NCBI GenBank assembly: GCA_025929715.1
Contig: JAICPS010000004.1
Coordinates: 1-37,208, forward strand
Direction of reading: 5' to 3'
DNA from: Anaerolineae bacterium
GTDB lineage: Bacteria; Chloroflexota; Anaerolineae; Promineifilales; Promineifilaceae
Length of the DNA stretch: 37,208 bases
Shown here: piece by piece, positions 5,446-26,141 of the stretch
Layout of the letters: each line of letters begins with the position of its first letter
How positions within the stretch are numbered: position 1 is the first letter of the stretch
Notes under the pieces: model-generated
The model's input: the letters and a program-made list of their open reading frames with translations, nothing else
What the model was told of the DNA's origin: nothing
Databases searched by the model: none
Position numbers and translations under genes: made by a program

Positions 5446-7103
5446 CAGATCGCCGCTCGCCCAGTAGGCCAGCCCCAAAAGCGCCGTCGTCGTGCCGCGC
5501 TCGTAATAGCCATCCTCCTGCAACAGCTCGAGCGCCTGGCGGGCCTGGCAGACGGTGCCAGGTATGTCGTCGAGCGCCTGCGCGCGATAGGCGCGAGCAT
5601 TGGCAATCGTCGCGCGTAGCGAGTGATACTGCGCTTCGTCGGCCACGACCATTGGGACGCCGTCTTTTTCGGTCGCCGGGATTCGCGCGCTTTCCGCCTC
5701 GTCCTTGGCCTCGTCCAGCCAGCGCTCCGCCTCCTGCAGATAGGCCTCGGCGACGTCATACTCGCCGCCATCGAGGTGGGCCCAGGCAGAGACGACGCTC
5801 AGTACGGGCCTGGCGTGGAACAGGGAATCGGGCAGCGCCCTTACACAACGAAGCACGGTTGCTTCCTGGCGACGCCTGCGCATGGCCGGCCAGGTCCGCT
5901 CGACCAGCGCCGCCGCTCGCTCGAAATCGGCGCCGGCCAGCGCATGACGGATGGCATCCGACGGCAAGTCATTTTGCTCGTACCACGCGCTCGCCCGCCG
6001 GTGCAGGTTGGGGACCTGGGCGGGCTGCTCCTTCAACAGCCGGGCGCGCAGGACCTCGGCAAACAAGTGGTGATAACGATACCAATGGCGCTGCGCGTCC
6101 AGCGCAATGACAAACAGGTTGCCGCGCTCCAGAGCCTCCAGCATCTCTTCGCCGGCTTGCTCGCCTTTAGCGCCGCGTCGGCGCCTAAACGCACGGCGTC
6201 GCACAGCGGTCCGCTCAAGCGGTCGAGAAGGGCGGTCTGTAGCAAGAAGCTGCGCACGGGTTGCGGCTGGCGCCGCAGTACCTCTTCAAGCAGGTAGTCG
6301 ATGACGAAACGGTGGCTGCCGGTGAAGGCCTGGATGAAGCCGGCGCTGTGGCCCTCATGTGCAGACAGGTCACCCTGCAGCGCAAGGGCAGCCATCTGCA
6401 GCCCGGCGACCCAGCCCTCGGTGCGGGTCTCCAGCGCGGCGACGTCGTCGGCCGAGAGGTTCAGGCCCATCACCTGGTTGAGGAAGGCGGCGGCTTCCTC
6501 GGGCGTGAAGCGCAGGTCGGCGGCGCGCAGCTCGGCCAGCTTTCCCCGAGCGCGCAGCCGCGCCAGGGGCAGCTGTGGGTCGGAGCGGCTGGCAATGACC
6601 AGGTGCATGGCTGGTGGCAGGTGGTCGATCAGAAAGGTGAGGGCATCGTCGATGGAGCGGTGCTCGATGAGGTGGTAGTCGTCCAGGACGAGAATGAACG
6701 CTTGAGCACTCTCCACGACTTCATTGATGAGGGCCGTGAGGAACAGCTCGACCGGCCGAGGCTGTGGCTCTTGTAGGAGCCCCAGGGCCGCGGCTCCCAC
6801 GTCGGCGTCCACGGTTTGCAAAGCGGCGACCACGTACGTCCAGAAGCGGGACGGGTCATTGTCGCCGGCGTCGAGCAACAGCCAGGCGACGTCGACGTCG
6901 GGCTCGAGTCGGCGGCAAGCGGCGATCCATTCGCTGGCCAGCGTGGTCTTGCCAAAGCCGGCCGGGGCGGAAATGAGGCTTAGCTTGTGTGCAAAAGCTC
7001 CGTTCTGGCGCAGACCGGCGTTCAGCCGCTCAACCAGGCGCGGCCGCGGCACGCGGTTGGGCCGGGGGATATATAGCTTTGTCTTTAACAGGCGCTCGGT
7101 CAC
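5440..7103 (-). pseudogene. MalT-like STAND/LuxR-family regulator, frameshifted and missing its 3' end (C-terminal TPR and HTH absent)
   Basis: N-terminal part (7103-6033) has LSLISAPAGFGKTTLASEWIAACR (Walker A) and AFILVLDDYHLIEHRSID. It continues in another frame (6204-5440) as GEQAGEEMLEALERGNLFVIALDAQRHWYRYHHLFAEVLRARL to LLGLAYWASGDLQAA, then stops at the transposase fragment. Confidence 0.85.
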
Positions 7104-7173
7104 CCAGACATTATGTACACCTCGATACGGCCGGCACCTAATAGAGGGGGACTAGGAACAAGTTGTCAGCTCG

Positions 7174-13454: not shown

Positions 13455-15743
13455 CTATTTCTCGGCGTGGGTCCGTTGCAGCAAGCCGGCAACGATGTCT
13501 TCGGGATGCATCGGCAGCGCGCTCTGCTGGAACATCAGCACGCTCACCAGCGGCATATCTTGGAACATGTCCATCATGTCCAAGCCGATGGCGCCGTCAC
13601 TTCCATTCTGGTCGCCGTCGCCGCCGAACATCTGGCGCGCCGCGGATTCCATTTCTGCATAGAAAGGACCAAAGACGGCATTGCCGCGCGGGTCGGCCAA
13701 CCACTCACAAACCGTGGATTCCTCGTCCAGCAGGCAGGGTAGGTCCAGCGTGGATTCAAGGGTCACGGTCAAGGTGTGGCGAATGTCCGCGACGGAAGCC
13801 GCGAGCAGCAAGTCGAAAGCGCCGTCTTCGGTGATCCACTGCTTGTATTCGGGGTGATAGTAGGCAAAAGCGCGGAAATCGAGCGCAATGGAAACGGTTT
13901 TAGTCTCGCCCGGCTGGAGCTCTACCTTGGCGAATCCTTTCAACTCCTTCTGCGGGCGCACCAGGCCCGATTGTTGGTCGTGGACGTACACCTGCACAAT
14001 CTCCTTGCCCGCGACCTCTCCGGTGTTGGTCACAGCTACGGATACGGTCACGCCATCCACGTCCTTGAAGGTCGTCGCCGATACCTGCGGATTGTTGTAC
14101 GAGAAAGTGGTATAGCTGAGCCCGTAGCCAAAGGGGAAAAGGACCGGCATTTGCTTAGCATCATAGTAACGGTAGCCGATGAATAGCCCTTCGCCATAGT
14201 TCACTTTGCCCACGCCGCCAGGCCAATTGAGGTACGCAGGCGTGTCCGCCAGCTTGAGCGGGAAGGTTTCGGCCAGTTTGCCAGAGGGGTTCACCTTGCC
14301 AAAAAGGATGTCGGCAATGGCTGCGCCGCCGGCCTGGCCCATCATCCACGCCTCCAGAACGGCGGCGACGTCGCCAAGCCAGGCGCTCATGGCCACCGGC
14401 GCGCCGTTGTTGAGCACGACGATAGTTTGGGGCCGGACGGCGGCGACGGCCTTGATCAGCGCCACCTGCTGCTAGGTCAGATCCAGGTCTTTGCGATCGT
14501 ATCCTTCCGATTCTTTGGAAGGGGGCAGGGCTATGTACAGGATGGCCACGTCGCTCGATTGGGCCAACGACACCGCCTCGTCAATCAAATCCTGATTGAA
14601 AACGTCCACGGGTAGGTAACCCTCGGCATAGAGCAGTTCTGCCTCTGTGGCCCGGGCCTGTAGTTCGGCGAACGGTACGGCAACTTTCGTGGGGTTGATG
14701 TGCGAGCTGCCGCCGCCCTGGAAGTGGGCGTGCTTGGCGGAATGGCCGATGACGGCGATGCGCTTCTGTCCCTGCAGCGGCAGAATGCCGTTATTCTTGA
14801 GCAGCACCATGCCTTCGGCGGCAACGCGTCGCGCCAGCTCGTGATGCGCGTCGACGTCAAACTCACCGCCCTTCGGCGTCTCCGCGGCCTTGAAGACAAT
14901 GCGCAAAATGCGCCGCACGGACTCGTCCAACATTGCCTCGTCCAGTTTTCCGGAACGTACGGCGGCAACGACCTCCTCGACGTGGCGGTCTTGCGGGCCG
15001 GGCATCTGCCAGTCCAATCCGCCTTTCAGCGCTGCTACGCGATCGCGCACGGCGCCCCAGTCTGAGACGACCAGGCCCTCAAAGCCCCACTCCCGTTTGA
15101 GGATGTCGTTTAGCAAGGCCCGGTGCTCGGAGGCAAACGTGCCATTGACCTTGTTATACGAGCACATCACGGTCCACGGTTTCGCCTGTTTGACTGCTTT
15201 TTCAAAAGCGGGCAGATAAATCTCGCGCAAGGTGCGCTCATCCACTTCCGCGCTGATGATGAAGCGCTGGAACTCCTGATTATTTGCGGCGTAGTGCTTG
15301 AGCGATGTGCCGACGCCTTTACTTTGCACGCCGTCGATGTAACTGGCAGCCAGCTCGCCAGCCAGATAAGGGTCTTCGGAGAGGTACTCAAAGTTGCGGC
15401 CGCCGAGCGGAGAACGTTTCATATTGGCGCCGGGGCCGAGAATCACGTCTACGTTCAGCGCAAGGCACTCCTGCGCCAGCGCTTCACCTTCGCGGCGCAT
15501 CAAATCGACGTCCCAGGTGGAAGCGAGGCAGGATGCAGTGGGGAAGCAAGTGGCGGGCAGGCTCTCGCTGGCCATATCGTTGAGATCGGGCAAGCGCCGC
15601 ACGCCGTGCGGCCCATCCGAAACGATCATTTCTGGCACGCCCAGCCGCTCCACGGGCGTAGACGACCAGGCGCTGGCGCCTGTACAGAGGTCCGCTTTCT
15701 CTTCGAGCGTCATTTGTTCGATTATTGATTGGATATCCATCAT
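13455..15743 (-). pseudogene. Glycoside hydrolase family 3 beta-glucosidase (GH3 #2), interrupted by one in-frame TAG
   Basis: ORF 15743-14472 ends ...SEGYDRKDLDLT* and the same frame resumes directly with QQVALIKAVAAVRPQTIVVLNNGAPVAM. GH3 #1 has DLDLAAHQVALIQAV at this point. Confidence 0.88.
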
Positions 15744-20795: not shown

Positions 20796-22763
<1,968 letters not shown>

Positions 22764-23008
22764 TATAGTCTCTCCTTCCTACGGGTTGATTTCTGCCGCA
22801 TTTGCAGGCAACTCGGTCTTCCCCTGAAGCAAACGGCAAGAATCGATAAATGTTAGATTGTCCGGCACCAGACAATTACCCACTTTCTTATTAAGAATTA
22901 TCGAAAAAGGAGGCTTTGTATATCTGGATTATGGATGATTTCACCAACATGCGGGCGGGTGTTTAGCGGCAGTATGGGACTTTAGTCGTGCTCTGGTAGA
23001 TGAAAAGC

Positions 23009-23056
23009 ACCCAAAAGTTACCCAAAAGTGATGTAGTGTGTTATATTTTGGGTAAC
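23009..23056. promoter_or_regulatory. Candidate operator array: ACCCAAAAG direct repeat (11-bp period) plus inverted copy TTTTGGGTAAC
   Basis: ACCCAAAAG at 23009-23017 and 23020-23028. GTTACCCAAAA (23017-23027) is the exact inverse of TTTTGGGTAAC (23046-23056). Lies between the divergent SBP and regulator genes. Confidence 0.6.
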
Positions 23057-23129
23057 TCTCTGTTGGGTCGCACCTTTTCTCTAAGAAGGGCTGAGTTTGA
23101 TTCTCTAAGCGCCGCCGGGAGGATTTGAA

Positions 23130-26100
23130 ATGGGGAAGGTAATTGAGCCGGTCGTCCAGGATGGCATCCTGTGGATACGGGGGCAGGACACGACTGATGT
23201 GTCGGCGATCTCGCTCGACACTGCGCGCTGGACCGGCTGGTTGGAGGCGCACAAGAAGTTCAAGTTTGAAGGAGCCACCGGGCATTTCTCGGCGCGGCGT
23301 GAAACGCGGGGTGGCAACCACTACTGGTACGCCTATCGCCGTCGCGACGGCAAGCTCAATAAGGTCTATTTAGGAAAAGCAGAAGATATCACGCTGGCGC
23401 GCCTGGAAGATGCTGCGGCCGATCTGGCCGACACACCTGCCTTACCGCAGTTGGCACGCTCCACGGAAACGCCATACAACCTTTCCGACAGGACGTGGAT
23501 TAGCACTTCATTTCCGGCCCTGACAAAGTTCAGGCCACCGATTCTGCCGCCTAACCTGATCACCCGGCCCCGCCTGATCCAGAAACTCGGCTCGCCGGTC
23601 ACCTTCATTTGTGCACCGGGCGGCTATGGCAAGAGCACGTTGTTGAACGCCTGGCAGCAGGAACGCGAAGACCTGCCCATTGCCTGGGTTGCCCTGGAAG
23701 CAGATGACAATCACTTGCTGCGCTTCTGGTCCACGGTGATCATGGCCTTGCAGACGGTGGCGCCGGGCATCGGGAAGGACCTACTACCGTATTTGCAGCT
23801 TTCGTCGTCTGTGACGCCATCCGAAATCGTGGCGCGCCTGACAAATGAAATCGTTCAGAACAGGGTAGAAACGGATTGTATTGGCCTGGTGCTGGACGAT
23901 TACCACCACATCCAACACCCGGCCATCCATAACTCTATCCAGGCCTGGCTTGACCATTTCCCGCCTGCTTTGCAGCTCATCGTTTCCGGCCGCACCAGGC
24001 CGCCCATCGCCCTGGGCTACTTGCGCTCGCGCGGGCACGTCACCGAGCTAGAGATGGACGATCTGCGCTTTACCCTTGAGGAAGGGATAGAATTCTTGCA
24101 GCAGCATATCGTCGAGCAGCCGCTGGCTTACGGGGATATGGAAACGTTGGTCAAGCGAACGGGCGGATGGGCGGCCGGCCTGATGCTGGCTGTGGTGGGT
24201 CTGAACAAACATGAAGACCGTAACCACTTCCTAAACTCTTTCAACGGCGCCCACATCTTCTTTCGCGAGTATTTTCTGGAGAGCGTGCTTCAACAGCAGC
24301 CCGCGTCCGTAGAGAAATTCCTGCTAGAAACGTCCATCCTAACCAAATTGACCGGCGGCCTGTGTGACGCCGTCACGGGACAATCGGACGGGGCGCAGAT
24401 GCTGGATCGCCTGTGGCAGGAAAACCTGTTCATGGTTCGTTCCGAAGAGCCAGAGTGGTTTCAATATCATGATTTGTTTGCCGAAATGCTTAGCAACCAG
24501 CTGCAGATGTGGCATCCCGAGCAGATTCCTGACCTCCATCGCTGCGCGGCCGCCTGGTACCGCGAGCAAAACGCTTCGACCGATGCTGTGCGACATTTGC
24601 TGGCCATACAGGATTGGGAAGAAGCAGCTTCCTTAATAGAGGACGTCATCCTACGCGAACTAATGGAGTACGGTGAGGATTCGCGCCTGCTGCGCTGGAT
24701 TCAACAATTACCCCAATCCGTTTTTCAGCACCACAAAACGCTGCTCTTTGCCTATTTGCGGCTGGCGAGATTGGCGCTGCATCCGGTCGAAGTCGAACGC
24801 TTCCTGCAGCGGCTAGAAAACACACTCGTCGACAAGCCTGACGAGAAAATGACAGCGGATGAGCGGGAAGTGTTGGCCGAGATCCAGACGATCCGGCAGC
24901 GCACCATCGCCGGAGACGCGATAGAGCCGCCGGCAGACGTCACCGATTCACGCTGGCAACTGCTGGATGCCTTGTGGATTGTCGAGGCAAGCTATATGCC
25001 GCAGACGGTCGAAGTGGGAGAGCGCCTGCACGAGATATACGAGCAAGCACGGGCAAGAGGCAACCTGTTTGTGGTGCTGATTGCCGGAGCAGACTGCGCC
25101 AACCGCGCCTTCTTGCACGGGCAGCTACGACAAAGTGAAAAGATCGTTCGCCAGGTCTTACAGCACGCCTCGGCTCGGCGTGGCAAGTTACCAGAACCCG
25201 CCAGCATCGCGTTGTACACGTTGAGTCTCGTGTGTCTGGCCCGCAACGAGTTGGCCGAGGCTCGCCAGCTGCTGGAACAGGCCACGGACGTCGATCCACA
25301 TCCGACCAGCTCCAACATCATTATGAACATTGCCATCGCGCGCGCCAACCTGCAGTCGGCGTTGGGAAATCACGCGGCGGCGCAATCTACGATTCAGGGC
25401 GCGCGCGCCCTGCAGGCGCAACAGCCTTCAAGGGTGTGGCGCGACCAGGACCTGGCTGCTTATGAAGCAAGATTCTGTATTCGTCAGGGGAAATGGGCGG
25501 AAGCGCAACGGCTGCTGACTGAGGCGACAACAGGAAAAGACACCGCCTTGTCACAGCTGGTACAGGCTGAGATGCTGCTATACGAGGAGGAGGCAGCTGC
25601 CGCCGAAGACGTTTTGACCGATTTTGTGGCCAAGTATCCCCACGGCTATCCGAACGAACCTTCGCTGGGCGCGCGAGTCTTGTTGGCCGTGGCGCTGTTT
25701 AATCAGCACAAAATGCACCAGGCCCGGCAGGTATTGGCAGAAACCGTGCGGCTGGCTGCGCCAGAGCGCTTTATGCGGCCGTTTCTCGACTACGCATCCC
25801 AAGGCCCCTCGCTGTTCGCGCTCTTGCACACTGAAACCCTGAACGCCGGTGCACAGAAATTCACGGAAGAGATATTGCAGACCTTAGGGCAGGCGGACCA
25901 GATAGAAGACCTGATACCGCCGGCAGACCTGAGGTCGCTGGCGCTGGCGGCATCGATCACGGAGCGTGAGCAGGAAGTGCTGCAGCTGCTCAGTGGCGGC
26001 CTGTCCAATCGCGAGATCGCCTTAAAAATATGCACGTCACCCGGCACGGTGAAAACACATTTGGCCAACATCTATGGCAAGCTCAACGTGAACAACCGCG

Positions 26101-26141
26101 TGCAAGCCGTGGCAGAGGCGCAACTGCTGCATTTGGTGTGA
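23130..26141 (+). CDS. MalT-like STAND ATPase / LuxR-family transcriptional regulator with extra N-terminal domain
   Basis: VTFICAPGGYGKSTLLNAWQQ (P-loop), CIGLVLDDYHHIQHPAIH, TPR-like region, C-terminal LTEREQEVLQLLSGGLSNREIALKICTSPGTVKTHLANIYGKLNVNNRVQAV-type LuxR HTH (read here as ITEREQEVLQLL...). Confidence 0.93.
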   Translation: MGKVIEPVVQDGILWIRGQDTTDVSAISLDTARWTGWLEAHKKFKFEGATGHFSARRETRGGNHYWYAYRRRDGKLNKVYLGKAEDITLARLEDAAADLADTPALPQLARSTETPYNLSDRTWISTSFPALTKFRPPILPPNLITRPRLIQKLGSPVTFICAPGGYGKSTLLNAWQQEREDLPIAWVALEADDNHLLRFWSTVIMALQTVAPGIGKDLLPYLQLSSSVTPSEIVARLTNEIVQNRVETDCIGLVLDDYHHIQHPAIHNSIQAWLDHFPPALQLIVSGRTRPPIALGYLRSRGHVTELEMDDLRFTLEEGIEFLQQHIVEQPLAYGDMETLVKRTGGWAAGLMLAVVGLNKHEDRNHFLNSFNGAHIFFREYFLESVLQQQPASVEKFLLETSILTKLTGGLCDAVTGQSDGAQMLDRLWQENLFMVRSEEPEWFQYHDLFAEMLSNQLQMWHPEQIPDLHRCAAAWYREQNASTDAVRHLLAIQDWEEAASLIEDVILRELMEYGEDSRLLRWIQQLPQSVFQHHKTLLFAYLRLARLALHPVEVERFLQRLENTLVDKPDEKMTADEREVLAEIQTIRQRTIAGDAIEPPADVTDSRWQLLDALWIVEASYMPQTVEVGERLHEIYEQARARGNLFVVLIAGADCANRAFLHGQLRQSEKIVRQVLQHASARRGKLPEPASIALYTLSLVCLARNELAEARQLLEQATDVDPHPTSSNIIMNIAIARANLQSALGNHAAAQSTIQGARALQAQQPSRVWRDQDLAAYEARFCIRQGKWAEAQRLLTEATTGKDTALSQLVQAEMLLYEEEAAAAEDVLTDFVAKYPHGYPNEPSLGARVLLAVALFNQHKMHQARQVLAETVRLAAPERFMRPFLDYASQGPSLFALLHTETLNAGAQKFTEEILQTLGQADQIEDLIPPADLRSLALAASITEREQEVLQLLSGGLSNREIALKICTSPGTVKTHLANIYGKLNVNNRVQAVAEAQLLHLV

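Follow-up and report, generated by a model that had tools for sequence, protein, structure and literature searches.

A conserved inverted repeat upstream of a MalT-like regulator gene in Anaerolineae as a probable self-operator

Among LuxR-type regulators, the half-sites of GerE and NarL lie close together. Those of GerE form overlapping 12-bp repeats (PMC9628970). MalT of E. coli uses sets of sites (PMC4381067) with the MalT-box consensus GGA[TG]GA (PMC9628970), and SCO6993 of Streptomyces coelicolor, a MalT-like large ATP-binding LuxR regulator (LAL), is a repressor that binds its own promoter and leaves a footprint there (PMC9628970). P4 Int and IntS also repress their own genes (PMC2951348). 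The integrase of phage P4 carries a Pfam arm domain, and its annotated arm sites, which read NNNTGCCCCCAA, are found at the start of its own gene as two direct copies with a 12-bp period and one inverted copy. Autobinding by an LAL is thus already known from SCO6993. In the papers that we searched we found no TTRCCCAA operator, no LAL with an arm-type domain and no operators of the LAL/MalT-like regulators of Chloroflexota; both the operator and the arm-like LAL domain reported here appear new. Such regulators are abundant in this phylum, and the finding offers one testable binding code for them.

We analysed a stretch of 37,208 nucleotides from an Anaerolineae bacterium (hereafter the window; contig C383, one of 776 in a 5.06-Mb genome), in which a MalT-like regulator gene and a transporter operon diverge from a common intergenic region. 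The features considered are the following:

20796–22763, minus strand: divergent SBP_bac_5 gene, which opens an Opp-like ABC operon and may be a second target
22915–22945, minus strand: second conserved intergenic block, probable SBP promoter, from eight aligned orthologous intergenic regions
23009–23017, plus strand: additional half-site ACCCAAAAG in direct orientation, preceding the left arm by 11 bp
23016–23027, plus strand: left arm of the operator dyad, AGTTACCCAAAA, with the core TTACCCAA at 23018–23025; kept in 24 of 25 subfamily members
23028–23045, plus strand: dyad spacer, which holds the regulator -10 box (TAnAAT) in most relatives
23046–23057, minus strand: right arm of the dyad, TTTTGGGTAACT on the plus strand and AGTTACCCAAAA on the minus strand; conserved
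23063–23068, minus strand: weak extra inverted half-site TTGGGT, a fourth copy 15 bp after the right arm
23130–26141, plus strand: MalT-like STAND/LuxR (LAL) regulator of 1003 aa (Pfam TPR_MalT, GerE), presumed operator binder and target
23130–23438, plus strand: N-terminal arm-type-like domain, aa 1–103, predicted to bind DNA (AlphaFold, Foldseek)
25953–26114, plus strand: C-terminal GerE/LuxR-type HTH, aa 942–995 (Pfam)

The two arms of the inverted repeat match perfectly over 12 of 12 positions across an 18-bp spacer, one base longer than claimed in an earlier note on this DNA. Its score of 12 was reached by none of 60 shuffles of the 300-bp upstream region, for which the maximum was 9. The direct repeat of ACCCAAAAG that the same note had reported is borne out, the two copies (23009–23017 and 23020–23028) lying at an exact 11-bp period, and when the whole window was shuffled 100 times, two copies of this word were reached twice. 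The 11-bp copy at 23009 is absent from the seven closest intergenic regions, and is so either recent or lost elsewhere. A partial TTACCCA reported near 22876 is indeed present (22876–22882), but across seven orthologous intergenic regions it is not kept. Nor is the spacing of the TTGGGT at 23063–23068 conserved in the relatives whose pairs we listed. Scanning the genome of origin with the relaxed dyad ACCCAA-N17-24-TTGGGT gave a single occurrence in 5.06 Mb, at this locus, and none for the reversed control; TTACCCAAAAG has one further occurrence, on contig C442, which lies inside an ORF without a partner arm. No regulon was found in this search of the genome, and the presence of one dyad in the whole of it indicates a local rather than a regulon site.

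We then compared the locus with those of Anaerolineae/Chloroflexota MAGs. The subfamily sample comprises 25 members with upstream DNA (matches at E < 1e-112, or paralogues in which the N-terminal domain is also present), sharing 33–72% identity and drawn from many families of the class. In 24 of these 25, TTRCCCAA-N18-22-TTGGGYAA outscores every other inverted repeat in the 300 bp before the start; it lies within 260 bp of the start codon and beats all 60 shuffles of its upstream region in each of the 24. In the 25th (G007b), the dyad is found ~1 kb upstream, with TAAAAT in the spacer on the regulator strand. Identity between members amounts to 95% in the arms and 34% in the spacers. Two arm columns covary, both sides always changing (A-T to G-C in five members, G-C to C-G in three), with 24 of 24 pairs intact; one left-arm base deviates in G187b. 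Conservation upstream of orthologues, whose absence had been named as an argument against a regulator-binding site, was thus found.

In a class-wide scan of 396 genomes (counted by hand from tables), the dyad is present in 17 of the 17 genomes with a subfamily regulator versus 29 of the 379 without, and a reversed-pattern control matches 38 of the 396, about the rate in the regulator-free genomes. The tie to the regulator family therefore appears exclusive within the class, and this comparison supports well the earlier proposal of a candidate site for the adjacent 1003-aa regulator, since the dyad tracks the gene. In one genome (G018), the regulator and the dyad are on separate contigs, the dyad being at a contig end, with 85 bp between it and the SBP gene. 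One of the 29 regulator-free genomes (G297) displays a perfect promoter dyad followed by just the last codons of a lost regulator: the regulator was deleted and its promoter left behind.

At that locus (L141, G297:C540, 1887–2079) the operator-promoter is intact and only the last codons of the regulator HTH remain. The dyad matches at L102, L103 and L104 lie inside ORFs and were treated as chance. The copy in G039 belongs to a regulator gene broken by an adapter; this 26th member keeps the dyad intact up to the start codon, with one position unpaired. There, Illumina/Nextera adapter sequence in the MAG contigs splits one regulator gene across two contigs (L045, G039:C358; L142, G039:C600). Dispersed palindromes of the form TTACCCAATTAC..GTAATTGGGTAA were also seen at G006:C464:15840, G027:C11:49254, G027:C68:35574 and G027:C73:50192, and resemble a family of intergenic repeats with no relation to the operator.

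The dyad also has a recurrent position relative to the predicted promoter. In 16 of 24 members a -10 box matching at least five of six positions stands on the regulator strand at a fixed offset in the spacer, compared with three on the opposite strand and with a mean of 1.4 and a maximum of 6 in 5000 rounds of shuffled spacers. A -35 box of at least five of six positions precedes it at 16–18 bp in 10 of 24 members (shuffles: mean 0.3, maximum 3 in 2000). This places the left arm between -35 and -10, with the right arm beginning 6–10 bp past -10, at about +1, as in TTGACA-AGTTGCCCAACACGGGG-TACACT (G187a) or TTGCCA-AGTTGCCCAACAGTGAG-TATAAT (G144). Judging from these boxes, the dyad usually straddles what would be the sigma70-type promoter of the regulator itself; RNA polymerase would face competition there from a protein bound to both arms, which points to autorepression rather than to a MalT-like activator site. 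Exceptions are G007 and G025, with TATAAT upstream of the dyad instead of inside. Note that the promoter in the window departs furthest from the canonical pattern: its intergenic region yielded no consensus promoter, and the spacer region offers just TATATT (23042–23047), whose offset differs from that of the relatives' -10 box. With no good -10 at the expected place in this copy, the statement of promoter overlap concerns the family, in which the site overlaps its own core promoter as expected of an autorepressor operator, and is not clear for the window.

Beyond the subfamily, the N-terminal domain was found in many more LALs of the phylum (57 of 400 genomes, often several per genome). Of 83 arm-domain LALs from other classes, 21 have an exact TTACCCAA/TTGGGTAA upstream, against 3 for the reversed word and 4 for permuted words. 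For LALs without the arm domain the half-site was upstream of 2 of 40 (controls 2 and 2), and of 0 of 15 in a second set. The half-site thus tracks the arm-domain LAL family into other classes, in further agreement with the candidate-site proposal. Same-strand ACCCA pairs within 40 bp are spaced by 10 (5), 11 (2), 12 (7), 19 (1), 20 (3) or 21 bp (2), and by 29, 32 and 33 bp (4 together), roughly one, two or three turns of the helix, while none occur at 13–18 or 22–28 bp. A pair at 9–13 bp is present in 14 of 81 arm-domain regions versus 0 of 40 controls, the loci with pairs being partly from related genomes and counted as about seven independent groups. At several distant loci the sites come directly after an extended -10, for example TGCTATACT...ATACCCAAacTTACCCAA (L169) and TATAATgTTGGGTAAC (L214). 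Helical phasing of direct copies, as claimed earlier for the window, therefore holds for the family, although the 11-bp copy itself is missing in the close orthologues.

The regulator has the MalT-type STAND/LAL architecture, with an NTPase NOD, a MalT-like TPR sensor and a C-terminal GerE HTH. It scores 68 bits with Pfam TPR_MalT (cut-off 45) and 63 bits with GerE (cut-off 23.5), its residues 133–520 match the PDB structure of MalT 8bob (E 1e-45), and its 318.7 bits with the MalT equivalog NF003420 (NCBIfam) are below the cut-off of 537, so that it is MalT-like and not MalT. Residues 1–103 form an additional domain with invariant W, Y, K and YLG positions. The AlphaFold model is confident over residues 30–100, with core pLDDT above 90. 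The integrase arm-type fold is a three-stranded sheet plus a helix. The best Foldseek match in the PDB is 3rmp, a P4-like integrase/attP entry (prob 0.90, E 0.035), with 3jtz also found (0.87); the best viral matches are two phage integrases (prob 0.99 and 0.97; E 0.006 and 0.01). Overall, the fold matches have E of about 0.006–0.06, none below 0.001. Searches by sequence gave no significant match: Pfam Arm-DNA-bind_3 scored 13.2 bits (cut-off 27, E 0.1) and matched 2 of 25 members, hhalign of the domain against the integrase arm domain gave E 0.028 with a probability of 1.7%, a PDB sequence search with the N-terminal profile returned no match, and tblastn of phage records returned no arm-domain homologue. 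We rejected the Pfam match as evidence, as it is non-significant and the same model also matches leucyl-tRNA synthetase at E 0.0015–0.006. On the structural model, site and regulator would be linked through an N-terminal domain resembling the arm-type domain of tyrosine integrases. Covariation between half-site type (A or G) and the GerE recognition helix was also looked for, and gave no clean sorting. Two short proteins, L172 (280 aa) and L174 (295 aa), combine an arm-like domain and a GerE HTH without NTPase or TPR.

How does this locus compare with the described systems? With MalT it shares the NOD-TPR-GerE architecture, several short direct and inverted sites and a divergent transport operon; it differs in its sites (here TTRCCCAA, not GGA[TG]GA, the motif being unlike the MalT box as already pointed out in the earlier note), in their place on the regulator's own -35/-10/+1 and in the extra N-terminal domain. 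Like SCO6993, footprinted on its own promoter and acting negatively, it is an LAL with binding predicted at its own gene; SCO6993, however, has 606 aa and short palindromes without a common consensus, and no comparable class-wide conserved dyad. The GerE/NarL-type operators have in common with it the C-terminal GerE HTH and two inverted half-sites, which are 18–22 bp apart here. With the P4-like integrases the likeness lies in the predicted arm-type fold, in sites ending in CCCAA, in 12-bp direct plus inverted copies and in autorepression, here predicted, at an overlapping promoter, whereas the P4 site is TGCCCCCAA rather than TTRCCCAA, and the regulator is without the recombinase domain with which integrases recombine DNA. 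The parallel in site layout is a direct observation; the likeness of the domains rests on the fold, the sequence homology not being significant.

Taken together, the array is probably the self-operator of the adjacent regulator, which would bind the half-sites, cover its own promoter and repress its own gene. By its parts, binding of the dyad by the regulator is very probable given the comparative data, and repression of the regulator's own gene by this binding is likely. In the mechanism that we propose, the regulator would be a STAND protein of MalT-like type to which an integrase-arm-type domain has been added at the N-terminus, the TTRCCCAA half-sites most likely being bound by two of its subunits, or by more where phased direct copies exist. 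The gene would then stay repressed until the regulator is activated or released, and the divergent transporter operon may be regulated from the same site, perhaps by acting at the same time from upstream on the SBP promoter ~100 bp away. The variation of arm spacing from 18 to 22 bp suggests two flexibly joined binding units and not one rigid dimer; for the latter a range of nearly half a helical turn is odd, and this counts against the self-operator reading. Whether the arm-like domain rather than GerE reads the half-site we consider evenly balanced. Somewhat more tentative is the wider picture in which an arm domain resembling that of P4-type integrases, joined to Chloroflexota STAND/LuxR regulators, rather than the LuxR HTH reads TTRCCCAA, with one self-operator code family-wide; a paralogous family of up to at least 10 copies per genome would then share this code, in the form of dyads or helically phased arrays on their own promoters. 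From this finding one would expect negative autoregulation and also, in a STAND protein, an additional domain for DNA binding that is possibly related to integrases.

The main competing explanation, which we consider unlikely, is that the dyad is an activator site on which the regulator binds cooperatively like MalT and switches on the divergent SBP/transporter operon, its own gene being incidental. MalT, the best characterized relative of this MalT-like regulator, is an activator, and this counts against autorepression; a transporter or glycosidase operon is the divergent neighbour in many relatives, and the conserved probable SBP promoter has the dyad ~100 bp upstream. However, the dyad holds its register with the regulator -35/-10 while the divergent genes (SBP, GH3, others) and their distances vary, the orthologues show no second copy near the SBP promoter, and the motif is unlike the MalT box (PMC9628970). 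The MalT-like activator array suggested in the earlier note for the SBP/regulator promoter does not fit the geometry: one inverted repeat placed on the regulator's -35/-10/+1, a repressor position.

Less probable still is an operator for another transcription factor, encoded elsewhere and controlling the regulator gene. Binding by the regulator itself is predicted, and the recognition helices of GerE do not sort cleanly between A-type and G-type carriers, which would leave room for such a factor; but the dyad co-occurs with the regulator in 17 of 17 genomes and is at background frequency where the regulator is lacking, the window's own genome has one copy, and the half-site follows the arm-domain family, not other LALs, into other classes. 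Covariation of the arms would also be explained if the regulator mRNA folded into a hairpin in its 5' leader, and G007 and G025 have TATAAT upstream of the whole dyad. This reading is nevertheless very improbable, as the -10 between the arms in most relatives would leave the left arm untranscribed, the direct copies of distant relatives at helical spacing form no hairpin, and TTRCCCAA is itself conserved, beyond pairing. Chance, which the shortness of the words and the copies at 22876, at 23063 and at 11 bp, unconserved in close orthologues, might suggest, is practically negligible: shuffles and conservation tests all speak against it, and for the dyad it is already refuted. The self-operator is our preferred reading.

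As to the neighbouring genes, the SBP operon includes Opp-like permeases and ATPases, and the same divergent SBP neighbour was found in eight other genomes (G026, G027, G028, G029, G032, G033, G037 and G018). The block at 22915–22945 reads CTTGTAnATnTnGTTTTTGG..GATTT, with a minus-strand TATACA at 22923–22918. It also contains GG[AC][TG]GA, near the MalT-box core, in 8 of 8 aligned orthologues, which may be chance. Further away, two minus-strand ORFs (13455–14465 and 14472–15743) hold the halves of one GH3 glycosidase (exo-alpha-1,6-L-arabinopyranosidase-like), which match consecutive parts of one model, the split being a frameshift or an assembly error. A second MalT-like regulator, also on the minus strand (5689–7130), is read in two frames (query aa 115–422 and 416–575) and is probably a decayed or frameshifted paralogue.
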